From: an uncultured archaeon | GTDB taxonomy: Archaea > Nanobdellota > Nanobdellia > Woesearchaeales > CAIVOO01 | Reading direction: 5' to 3' | Assembly: GCA_903904885.1 (NCBI GenBank) | Contig: CAIVED010000004.1 | Coordinates: 1-63,332 of the forward strand | DNA: 63,332 bases | Shown: positions 18,118 through 51,532 of the stretch, one piece after another | Position numbering within the stretch: the first letter of the stretch is position 1 | Layout: the number at the start of each line of letters is the position of its first letter | Notes under the pieces: model-generated | What the model saw: the letters and a program-made list of their open reading frames with translations, nothing else | Database searches by the model: none | What the model was told of the DNA's origin: nothing | Made by a program: the position numbers and the translations under genes

Positions 18118-18179
18118 TCTTAGCTGATAATAAAATTCCTTTTTTCTGGGCAGTTCTTAATCCAGTTTATTGCTTCTGA

Positions 18180-18425
18180 TTGTTGCCTTTACTGCCAGAA
18201 CTGCTTAAGCTACTTTCGCTGCGCTCAGTAGCCAATATTATATTCTTGCGCAAGAAAATGCTGTGGCATTTTCTGCGCGCAGAAAAGGCTTTGCCTTTTC
18301 TTGCGCATGGCACTCGGGCAGAAGAAGCGGACTAAACAGCAAGATTACAAGAAAATGTCGAGCATTTTCTGTACAGAAAATCCCAAAGGGATTTTCTTGT
18401 AATGCAAGAACCAGAAACCAGCTTT
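18180..18425. repeat. Hairpin-rich interspersed element, copy 1
   Basis: The 423-bp gap 18118-18550 has no gene. It holds two twin hairpins. The first (about 18248-18306) reads GCGCAAGAAAATGC, loop, GCATTTTCTGCGC then GCGCAGAAAAGGC, loop, GCCTTTTCTTGCGC. The second (about 18344-18403) has the same frame with different stems: ATTACAAGAAAATG with CATTTTCTGT, then ACAGAAAATCCC with GGGATTTTCTTGTAAT. Flanking unique parts (CTTTACTGCCAGAACTGC near 18187; TAATGCAAGAACCAG near 18400) recur in reverse complement at 51.26-51.46 kb. It looks like a MITE- or REP-like mobile repeat, or a structured RNA. A short frame across it (18263-18448) is not a gene. Confidence 0.7.
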
Positions 18426-18515
18426 TTGTTTTTAGAACTTACATATGAACATAACCCAAGAACCAGTAAAAGTTTTTTATTTTTAGAATAACCGCATTTT
18501 CAATTAAAGCAGGCT

Positions 18516-29166: not shown

Positions 29167-32100
29167 ATGAAAAGAATAATATTATTGTCTGCATTTGTAA
29201 TCGTAACAATCAGCCTAATTTACTCCTCTTTGGCAATTGTTGAAAGGTCATCGGCATTTCCTCAGATAACTCTCACGTTCACAAAAAACTATTCCAACTT
29301 TGACCCTTCCTACAAGGTCCTGGTTGATGTAAGCAGCATAAAACTGAACATAACCGACGAGCGCGGGAGGAACTACCCCTACAATTTCACAAGCATCCCT
29401 TTGGGAGGCCTAGGAAATACCTTTGCGCTGACCACGCTTGAGCCGCTGATGAACGGAAATTACACTCTTCAGGTTTTTGCAAAAGACATCGTGGGGAATG
29501 AGATAAACACGACGCAGACATTGGATGTAGAAGTTCCCTACATGGGCATAGCAATAGGCAGCCCTCCGCTTTCAGTTTCTCCAAAGCCTGTGTTTGACCT
29601 CGTAATCAAAACAGAAGGCGATGCCTACGGCTGCAAGTATGATTCCTTCCCCGTGATTTACAGCGATGCCTCTTTCACTTTTCAGGATTTGAACCCGAGA
29701 GACCATGCCAAGCTGAATTTCAACAATGATTCTGCAAAAACATTCTTTGGCCTGCAGGACGGCAGGGAATCGCCAATCTACCTATTCTGCAAGGACAATG
29801 AGTCAAACAGGATAAACCCCCAGATATTGAACATTTCCTATGACACAACTCGCCCTTCAATATCATTCCTGAACGACCAGATAATTATAACAGACACTGT
29901 GGGCGGAAAAGTTCTTGCAACAGCGGATGTACTTTCCAACGACAAAGTAGTTTGCAGATATGGCCCGCTGTTCAACCAGACAGAGGATGCGGAAGGCATA
30001 AAATTTGCCTCAACCCAGTCAAATTTTTCCGAGATGACTGGATTTTTCGGAAGAAGCGAAGATGAGGCTAATGAAAGCCAGTATTCAATAAAGCCTGAAA
30101 CAACAATAGACCTTACGGATAAGGTTGTTAACATAACCACAGTTTATACATTCAAAATAAACATTGCCTGCATAAACAGGGCAACATTAAACCTAAATGA
30201 CTACGGCGCCCAGAGGGTTTCGGCAACATTGCCTCTGACAGTAATCGTAAATCTCATCAAGCCAATCACAATACAGAAAATAAGCCCGGCTGACTTCACC
30301 GCTGAAAGTTTAATTTTCATTAATCTCACAACCAACAGGATTGCAACCTGCTCCTATAAATTTAATGGCACCCTGGCTGGAATCCTGGCTGCTTCTGCAG
30401 ACGAAAGGGTTCACAATGCTTCGCTTGGGGAATTTCAAGATGGAAGCTATGATCTGGATATAAACTGCACAGGAAGGGCGGCTACATCAAAAAACGAAAG
30501 ATTCCGGATAACAATAGACAATACGCCACCATCACAGGCATCGGTAATCTCTCCCAATGCGACCTGCACAAAAGAGCTTTCAGCGGATTTTGATGCGGTT
30601 GACAACGAGTCAGACATTGCCGGATACAATTACAGCATAGTCGGGCTTGACATTAATGATAAATTTACATCTTCCAACTCGGTTAGCCAAAGCAATCTTA
30701 ATCTTTCAAACCAGTCTTCATATTCTTTCACCGCAGTTGCCATCAACAGGGCAGGGCTCCCAGGACCGTCGGGCCAGGGCAACAACATTGTCTATGACCC
30801 CACAGGAGTTTTGTGCGACAGGAGGCCGCCTTCAATTTTCATCAAGCAGAATACAACTGCAACAGGGGTCTTTGTGATGCTCATATGCATAGACAGCGAA
30901 ACAGAATGCAATAACAATTCCTATTCATACCTGGTTTCAGCGGACAGCAACTGCGAGGGTTCTTTCCAGCCGATTACCTATGATGCAGAAAAAGAGATAT
31001 TCGGGGTTTTGGTCACCCAGGAAGGCTATTTCTGCTATGAGGCAGAGGACCTTGGGGGGAACAAGGCAAAGGGCTCGGAAAAAATAAAATTCCAGAGCTC
31101 CTCAAACTGCTACAACAGCATTGAGGACGGCGGCGAGACCGATGTTGACTGCGGCGGAATGTCCTCCTGCGTAAGATGCGACATCGGCAAGAAATGCGGG
31201 CTGGATTCTGATTGCGTTTCGTTGTACTGCCAGGGAGGGCTTTGCCAGGAGCCGTTATGCACTGACAATCTGAAAAACGGCTACGAAACTGATGTTGACT
31301 GCGGCGGCAGTGCCTGCGGCAAGTGCGGGGCAAACAAAAGCTGTATTTCCAATTCAGACTGCGAATTAAATTACTGCAACGCACTGCTGTTATGCGATGT
31401 TCCTGCCTGCAATGACCTTACAAAAAACGGAAATGAGACTGATGTTGACTGCGGCGGCAGTGCCTGCAACAAGTGCGCGCTGGGCAAGTTCTGCATAGAG
31501 AATTCAGACTGTGTAACCTCAGACTGCTTCGGGGGAGAATGCGTCCAGCAGCCAATCCCGATAAATCAAACACAGCCGATTGCACCTGAGACAGGCCTGC
31601 TGTTCAAGATTCTTAAAATAATCTTCCTGATGCTTGGCGTTTTAGGCATATTTGGCGGGTCAGGATATTTGTACTATAAAAAATCAAAGCCAAAGAAACC
31701 GGCGCCGTTGAGCGGGGCAAAGTCGCAGACCGCGGTTTCCGAGGAAAAAGCAATTGCAAAGCCAAGGGCGCTTACGCCGGAAGAGAAGATAAGGAAGCTG
31801 ACTGTCCAGGAGCAGATGAAAAGGGAAAAGGAGGAGACATCTGCAAAGCGGGAAAAGCTTTTTGGGCTTTTCGGGGCTCCGGGAAAGATTCCGCCGAAAG
31901 AGGCGCCGAATGCCCCTAAATTGCCGGCAGCGCCTGTCAGAAGAATAACCATTCCGCAGATTCCAAAGCAGCAGCCTGCTGCTGCAAAAAAGCCCGAGCA
32001 GAAGCCGGAGGACATATTCGGCAAACTGGGGAGGATGAAGCCCCGGGAGGGCAAGGAGGCAGGCATATTCGAAAAACTCGGGCTGCTGAAAGGGCAGACA

Positions 32101-32178
32101 GAATTTGAAAAGCTTGAAAATATTGGCAAGGGCAAAAAAGCAGAGGAGATAGAAAAGCTTAAGAAAAAAAGAAAATGA
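29167..32178 (+). CDS. Membrane-anchored surface protein with cytoplasmic tail (1003 aa)
   Basis: A signal peptide (IILLSAFVIVTISLIYSSLA) leads into Ig-like exodomains (to about 640), then three tandem Cys modules at about 645-795, each with a (G)xETDVDCGG(S)xxCxxC core. One membrane helix follows (about 808-832: ILKIIFLMLGVLGIFGGSGYLYY), then a basic, Pro/Lys-rich cytoplasmic tail of 170 residues. The tail repeats a short F-x-K-L-G motif (IFGKLGRMK, IFEKLGLLK, EFEKLENIGK). The tail suggests contact with a cytoplasmic partner, so this may link the giant extracellular proteins to the cell interior. The same Cys module occurs once in the giant protein at 8651. Confidence 0.82.
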   Translation: MKRIILLSAFVIVTISLIYSSLAIVERSSAFPQITLTFTKNYSNFDPSYKVLVDVSSIKLNITDERGRNYPYNFTSIPLGGLGNTFALTTLEPLMNGNYTLQVFAKDIVGNEINTTQTLDVEVPYMGIAIGSPPLSVSPKPVFDLVIKTEGDAYGCKYDSFPVIYSDASFTFQDLNPRDHAKLNFNNDSAKTFFGLQDGRESPIYLFCKDNESNRINPQILNISYDTTRPSISFLNDQIIITDTVGGKVLATADVLSNDKVVCRYGPLFNQTEDAEGIKFASTQSNFSEMTGFFGRSEDEANESQYSIKPETTIDLTDKVVNITTVYTFKINIACINRATLNLNDYGAQRVSATLPLTVIVNLIKPITIQKISPADFTAESLIFINLTTNRIATCSYKFNGTLAGILAASADERVHNASLGEFQDGSYDLDINCTGRAATSKNERFRITIDNTPPSQASVISPNATCTKELSADFDAVDNESDIAGYNYSIVGLDINDKFTSSNSVSQSNLNLSNQSSYSFTAVAINRAGLPGPSGQGNNIVYDPTGVLCDRRPPSIFIKQNTTATGVFVMLICIDSETECNNNSYSYLVSADSNCEGSFQPITYDAEKEIFGVLVTQEGYFCYEAEDLGGNKAKGSEKIKFQSSSNCYNSIEDGGETDVDCGGMSSCVRCDIGKKCGLDSDCVSLYCQGGLCQEPLCTDNLKNGYETDVDCGGSACGKCGANKSCISNSDCELNYCNALLLCDVPACNDLTKNGNETDVDCGGSACNKCALGKFCIENSDCVTSDCFGGECVQQPIPINQTQPIAPETGLLFKILKIIFLMLGVLGIFGGSGYLYYKKSKPKKPAPLSGAKSQTAVSEEKAIAKPRALTPEEKIRKLTVQEQMKREKEETSAKREKLFGLFGAPGKIPPKEAPNAPKLPAAPVRRITIPQIPKQQPAAAKKPEQKPEDIFGKLGRMKPREGKEAGIFEKLGLLKGQTEFEKLENIGKGKKAEEIEKLKKKRK

Positions 32179-51150: not shown

Positions 51151-51263
51151 GGGATTTGCCTAAACAAAAAAACGGGTATTTATACCTCTCAGTTATTTAT
51201 GCAACCCAGGCAGTGGTGAAGGCGTTGTGAAATAAGAATAGTGTTCTTAAAATAAAATTTATC

Positions 51264-51459
51264 TTTCTGGTTCTTGCATTACTTTGGACGTTTATTTGGC
51301 TTCTTCTGCTACGCAAGAAAACTTGGGGGTTTTCTGCGCGCAGAAAATGGCAAAGCCATTTTCTTGCGGAGTGCCATGCAAGAAAGAATTATTTATCTGT
51401 CAAGCGCAGCGCAGACAGATTGGGGCAGTTCTGGCAGTTGAGGCAAACAGCAAGATACG
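51264..51459. repeat. Hairpin-rich interspersed element, copy 2 (inverted relative to copy 1)
   Basis: Contains one twin hairpin (51312-51368): CGCAAGAAAAC, loop, GTTTTCTGCGC then GCGCAGAAAATGGC, loop, GCCATTTTCTTGCG, the same design as at 18248-18306 with changed but still paired stems. Flanks match the reverse complement of copy 1: CTGGTTCTTGCATTAC (51268), GGCTTCTTCTGC (51298), GGAGTGCCATGC, and GGGCAGTTCTGGCAGT (51423). The second twin hairpin of copy 1 is absent. Like copy 1 it lies in a non-coding gap (51151-51798). Confidence 0.68.
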
Positions 51460-51532
51460 GAATTGAAGGTAAGATCTGCCTAAAATGAATTTTTTGATTT
51501 TAAAATTCTCAGGGTGTAAAGCATTAGAAAAA

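Follow-up and report, generated by a model that had tools for sequence, protein, structure and literature searches.

The twin hairpin that occurs three times in the window (the whole 63,332-nt stretch of DNA analysed here) belongs to a short dispersed repeat, repeat B, which, judged from sequence comparisons, is most likely a non-autonomous, scarless mobile palindromic DNA element. Its mobility is read from its dispersal, from empty sites seen both in paralogous repeats and in protein homologues, from nesting, and from insertions in relatives that lie in frame within conserved protein genes or within an RNase P RNA gene. The arms of B show near-pure Watson-Crick pairing and its hairpin tips are found inverted. 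The host sequence is an archaeal rather than an organellar chromosome and belongs to the Woesearchaeota; by TopoVI-B, it comes closest among named relatives to Woesearchaeota and to uncultured archaea of lake sediments.

Twin-hairpin units and the distribution of repeat B

The three units described in the initial annotation are all present and intergenic (Table 1), the span 18344–18403 given there for the second being the unit listed in the table plus two paired T/A positions on each side. The boxes AAGAAAA/TTTTCTG/CAGAAAA/TTTTCTT and the inner stems GGCTTTGCC, TCCCAAAGGGA and TGGCAAAGCCA had also been correctly recognised. Units 1 and 3 have TTTTCTGCGCGCAGAAAA at their centre, while unit 2 has TTTTCTGTACAGAAAA and with it a shorter centre (GTAC); on paper, a four-way junction may form at this point. 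A detail absent from that annotation is the one-base bulge of each unit, arranged as a mirror image: the bulged base is an A that follows the first three bases in hairpin 1 and a T that precedes the final three in hairpin 2. Hairpin 1 thus has the layout NNN-A-AGAAAA-stem-loop-stem-TTTTCT-NNN, and is directly followed by its mirror image, NNN-AGAAAA-stem-loop-stem-TTTTCT-T-NNN.

Table 1. Copies of host repeat A and of the twin hairpin (repeat B) in the window
Feature	Position	Strand	Length	Ends and parts	Site
Host repeat A, copy 1	18132..18427	-	~185 nt without its two B inserts	ends approximate	
Host repeat A, copy 2	51254..51495	+	~185 nt without its one B insert	ends approximate	
Twin hairpin, copy 1	18249..18305	.	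57 nt	CGCAAG..CTTGCG; hairpin 1 18249-18277, hairpin 2 18278-18305	host repeat A, at TTCTTG^CATGG
Twin hairpin, copy 2	18346..18401	.	56 nt	TACAAG..CTTGTA; subtype ACAAG..CTGTACAG..CTTGT; base stems 2-3 bp	same repeat A copy as copy 1, at GATT^AATGC
Twin hairpin, copy 3	51312..51368	.	57 nt		second repeat A copy, near GCAGAAG..GAGTGCC; site common to C12:152582, C24:107035, C37:18847

Across its copies, repeat B measures 51–64 nt and consists of two adjacent imperfect hairpins, each with a base of 2–3 bp, an A/T-rich box (AAGAAAA/TTTTCT) and a bulge, beyond which come a variable inner stem and a loop of 3–4 nt. Most copies in the own genome have the terminal inverted repeats CGCAAGAAAA..TTTTCTTGCG, and the ends differ where the two base triplets differ. 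Further copies exist both in this genome and in its relatives. When the own genome was searched at the DNA level, 72 matches came up, most of which are accounted for by two nested repeats, A and B. A covariance model of B (R1), for which 16 own-genome copies were used, located 26 full B places in this 1.31-Mb Woesearchaeota genome. The best E-value there (7e-16) arises partly by construction, as the model was made from 16 of the genome's own copies; the best value in other genomes, which is independent of model building, was ~1e-14. Chance does not account for the units. Matches were found in 24 of 40 relatives (own genome counted) and, at a cut-off of E 1e-4 or better, in 87 of the 279 genomes of the phylum, 75 of them from the same order and 12 from other orders of the class. 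Copies are also present in a named genome, the assembly that contains Archaeon GW2011_AR15 (CP010425.1). Viral contigs gave only weak matches (E 0.004 or worse), which were taken as chance, and a pattern scan of genome contigs for the CGC subtype returned nothing, a scan from which the own-genome records may have been missing. The inner stems vary strongly between copies and no one master copy stands out, a feature that counts against a mobile element.

Four of the own-genome copies lie outside repeat A. When 24 own-genome loci were classified by their neighbouring genes, these were tandem at 12 loci, convergent at 11 and ambiguous at one, and at none were they divergent, which would be a promoter position; all informative copies adjoin the 3' end of a gene. 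In one relative (G012) two copies (L107 and L108) are situated at the extreme 3' end of a gene, where the CGCTAG of the element seems to provide a new stop codon.

Empty sites, nesting and copies within genes

Repeat A, the host of B at both loci of the window, is present at about 40 places genome-wide and has inverted ends of the form AAAATTCCGTTTGCTGG. Its first copy in the window, with the termini AAAATTCC..AAAAAGC, contains a central hairpin (GCTACTTTCGCTGCGCTCAGTAGC) in addition to two large ones; the two large hairpins, or halves, look like inverted homologues placed around the covarying central one. Repeat A is probably itself a mobile element. No autonomous parent was recognised for it, nor for a larger repeat found in the relative G132.

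Copies of repeat A without B at a position that is filled in other copies provide the empty sites. At the site occupied by the first twin hairpin of the window, for example, sister copies without an insert read TTCTTGCATGG. B is found at this site (TTCTTG^CATGG) in four copies of repeat A, at GGCANTC^GCAGAAG in another four, in the central hairpin in eight, and at TTTAAG^GCCTGCC and GCATT^A in two each, those at TTTAAG^GCCTGCC being identical inserts 3.3 kb apart. Some of the repeat A copies filled at the same site may represent one insertion that was copied along with A. Comparison of filled and empty sites revealed no target-site duplication, and the flanks contain no fixed target motif, only a weak A/T preference. 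B is also nested inside B, in three cases (C3:17608, C37:14040 and C11:14085).

Two further observations concern these sites. One repeat A copy (L012; G000:C24, ~107000) reads TTCTTGCGCATGG where others have TTCTTGCATGG, and its two extra bases could be the footprint of an element that was lost. In addition, TTTGAT(C/T)AAA or TTTGATT stands directly 5' of B at several loci in unrelated genomes (L043 of the own genome, G000; L051 of G002; L121/L122 of G037; L053 of G018; L059 of G014), which is possibly a target preference or possibly another host repeat.

Three relatives (G132, G069 and G187) contain copies of B that are identical, or differ by one or two tip changes, in differing surroundings, and here too B is carried by larger repeats rich in hairpins, each of which has it at a single site. 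At L237–L254 (G132 and G069) the larger repeat is a different one (TGTCAAGAACCAC...), with B at the fixed site GTGGTT^CTTGAG. Since B rides inside repeat A and inside the larger repeat of G132 and G069, part of its spread is passenger or composite amplification. That B never moved, and that its hairpins were born locally by template switching and converged on similar sequences, is hardly credible. Perfect hairpins can be generated by template switching (PMC8794818), as can inverted spacers (PMC8604942), and both effects are seen in B, but local birth, unless there was strong convergence, is refuted by the shared box sequence and by exact insertions of 18 codons; it is also at odds with a bulge and a length that are common to dozens of families, and with identical or near-identical copies in unrelated surroundings.

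These insertions are found within genes of the relatives; in the own genome no copy of B was found inside a protein gene. The relative G006 has a copy within its RNase P RNA gene (L049:1501–1553, inside an RF00373 match at 1345–1693). A frame remains open through B in the GDT1 antiporter, a P-type ATPase and CoaBC of G011, in Bud32, triosephosphate isomerase (TIM), a metallophosphatase and enolase of G128, in an Lhr-like helicase and Kae1 of G288, and in DUF357 (G292), ribonucleotide reductase (G014), the tail of ribosomal S19e (G009) and a T4SS pilin (G262). Thirteen of the proteins with an in-frame B, all from relatives, are recognised by Pfam. At the protein level B typically reads [A/S]LENQRFSGHRKSKGFSS, and it adds 18 amino acids that are missing from homologues. 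HMMER alignments of TIM with 4y8f and of Kae1 with 2ivn each show an exact 18-column homologue gap at B, and the TIM insert is specific to G128, being absent from the 28 other family members examined. Removal of the 18 codons (54 nt) from CoaBC leaves a DFP domain of 186 residues for 186 model positions and raises the score from 186.9 to 198.7 bits; the same operation on DUF357 turns a partial match into a full-length one (83.3 to 89.8 bits). A further open frame through B (ALENQRFSVPRNSKNFL) was noticed in a 363-codon frame at L350, in the assembly holding JACPJQ010000004.1.

The in-gene copies have model-reported lengths of 51–59 nt, and 12 of the 15 are multiples of three (Fisher P 0.004), which is not independent evidence because the in-gene copies were selected by their open frame. 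Could such copies be archaeal introns removed from the mRNA, or be bypassed by the ribosome as are mitochondrial byps? The hairpin form and small size do bring to mind the palindromic elements of a yeast mitochondrion that stay untranslated, as these are outlined in PMC6649704. This is nevertheless highly improbable, as one frame is open through B in all in-gene copies found and the lengths, with the bias just described, favour multiples of three.

Covariation and the nature of the fold

In an alignment of 150 matches, all 23 modelled pairs change on both sides, so that the covariation noted initially in three units is significant throughout the stems. With this and with the further copies in the own genome and in relatives, the initial annotation withstands the refutation that it had set for itself. 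Pairing cells make up 95.6% compared with 77.0% in shuffles, and cells with a double change number 552 compared with 135; the alignment holds both strands of symmetric elements, which doubles these counts and those of the controls alike. The initial annotation had taken covariation to indicate selection for the fold, either as RNA or as cruciform DNA. The first of these steps goes too far, given the near-zero G-U content and the flipping of tips, and as to the second, G-U scarcity and tip inversions favour DNA over an RNA fold. Among 74 distinct elements, G-U accounts for no more than 22 of the 1672 stem pairs (1.3%), and there are mismatches at 13 positions, whereas an energy-folded host RNase P RNA has 8 G-U in 97 pairs. 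Loops are of 3 nt in 105 of 148 hairpins. Within near-identical surroundings in G069, tips occur in both orientations, TCCAGAGGA/TCCTCTGGA and TGCAAAGCA/TGCTTTGCA, that is, as AGA/TCT and AAA/TTT flips, and in the own genome TGGCTTTGCCA and TGGCAAAGCCA are both present at the same repeat A site.

Template switching between the arms of inverted repeats is known to homogenise arms and to invert spacers (PMC8604942, PMC8794818), and it is able to create perfect hairpins (PMC8794818) as well as spacer inversions (PMC8604942). Arm homogenisation and spacer inversion being marks of template switching, covariation can arise without selection for the fold, and in DNA palindromes covariation alone is no proof of RNA function. 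The data point to DNA hairpins kept perfect by template switching during replication, rather than to an RNA fold. Bulges, too, ought to disappear through template switching, but the mirror-image bulge is retained in ~60% of the elements, and would therefore seem to be recognised by something. The conserved boxes together with this bulge suggest the same, namely a structure that is a target of recognition.

A structured functional RNA, or a cis-regulatory element of gene 3' ends (terminator, stability or processing hairpin) with a selected RNA fold, would agree with the strong covariation, with the location of the informative own-genome copies beside gene 3' ends and never between divergent genes, and with the covarying stems of host repeat A. 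We consider it quite unlikely, in view of the near absence of G-U pairs, the symmetry of B on both strands, its location within coding sequences and RNase P, and the lack of any orthologous position that is kept. Moreover, an Rfam 15 search of the window recovered a tRNA only and no family matching the twin hairpin, and the flanks yielded only tRNA and RNase P, with no confirmed stable RNA at the insert of L043 or L051. The possibility that insertion takes place at the RNA level, with a transcribed twin hairpin entering RNAs by ligation or reverse splicing and then returning to DNA as a copy, is raised by the insertions in RNase P RNA and in hairpin loops of the host repeat, and by the absence of target duplication. 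It is clearly improbable as well, since near-pure Watson-Crick pairing favours DNA.

Proposed movement of repeat B and comparison with known systems

No associated transposase was found. Y1_Tnp (PF01797) is missing from the own genome (G000, 98.7% complete) and from the copy-rich genomes G012 (a single contig), G037 and G033. The ends of IS200/IS605 elements form imperfect hairpins with extrahelical bases, and these elements insert without target duplication. B resembles them, and REP/BIME, in its imperfect hairpins and extrahelical bases, and the IS family also in the lack of a target duplication; Y1 proteins, furthermore, occur in 12 of the 40 relatives. That a Y1 (HUH) transposase moves B, as a miniature of this type or as a REP-like repeat, is even so very unlikely and has largely been refuted, in that copy-rich genomes have no Y1, G023, G026 and G027 have Y1 and no copies of B, and the flanks contain no constant tetranucleotide or short target beside the left end, only the weak A/T preference. 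A Y1 enzyme that was lost, or that is very divergent, is possible. The IS200/IS605 Y1 transposase was accordingly rejected as the mover. A classical DDE-type MITE is unlikely as well: terminal inverted repeats are present, but there are no target duplications, neither at the filled and empty sites nor in CoaBC, where taking out exactly 54 nt restores the DFP domain.

In the reading as a mobile DNA element, which we favour, B inserts precisely, with neither duplication nor loss of target bases, into A/T-rich and often hairpin-rich DNA, itself included. The following course may be envisaged. When single-stranded, as happens for instance at replication forks, B would fold into its hairpins; a putative enzyme of the host or of the element would recognise boxes and bulge and join the ends into new sites. 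Taken alone, the step of an enzyme acting on single-stranded hairpins has somewhat short of an even chance of being correct. Complementarity of the arms would be maintained by polymerase template switching, which would also remodel them, and copies would persist by doing little harm, lying near gene 3' ends, having lengths in multiples of three with open frames, or forming self-contained RNA folds. A still more tentative proposal is that the Nanoarchaeota host a new class of mobile DNA, either transposase-independent or dependent on a putative enzyme, with twin hairpins formed in single-stranded DNA, scarless insertion, inserts of 18 residues in TIM and Kae1, and arms that evolve by template switching. 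The exact ends, empty sites and nesting, in many related genomes, offer a way to test the mechanism of insertion, both comparatively and biochemically.

Palindromic elements within genes are a long-standing puzzle in Rickettsia, where to our knowledge the mover has never been found. With B, archaea have a system of this sort as well, very widely distributed and apparently distinct from the first. Rickettsia palindromic elements (RPE; Ogata et al. 2000, 2002) are described in PMC2229807 as bacterial and 105–146 bp in length. Like B, these and the protein-coding palindromic repeats of Wolbachia are dispersed, palindromic, intergenic and without a transposase of their own, and RPE share with B the in-frame position inside conserved proteins (for B, in relatives only) and the presence inside RNA genes, including that for RNase P RNA (PMC2229807). 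Length and host set B apart from RPE as these are described: it is 51–64 nt long, archaeal, and always has two adjacent hairpins with mirror-image bulges. B is regarded as a probably separate archaeal twin-hairpin family, RPE-like in kind. An archaeal precedent from a different host phylum, known here by citation alone, is M. jannaschii, in which palindromic repeats with coding potential were reportedly described by Suyama in 2005. In the open-licence literature no report of such repeats in Woesearchaeota was found.

Similarities also exist with the double-hairpin and repetitive hairpin-forming elements of mitochondria (PMC2800124) and with yeast GC clusters (PMC4478555), which like B are short, hairpin-forming and mobile-like, merge and nest, prefer intergenic positions and have no known mover. 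Double-hairpin elements share with B the two adjacent hairpins, in an organellar host as opposed to an archaeal chromosome; GC clusters have putative target-site duplications (PMC4478555), whereas B has none. The mitochondrial hairpin elements, moreover, are not known to encode in-frame inserts such as those of B, which demonstrate one way for short peptides to be brought into even the most conserved proteins. Elsewhere in the window, an ORF at 29167–32178 contains direct repeats with a 150-nt period (31127–31511), and these resemble cysteine-rich coding repeats.
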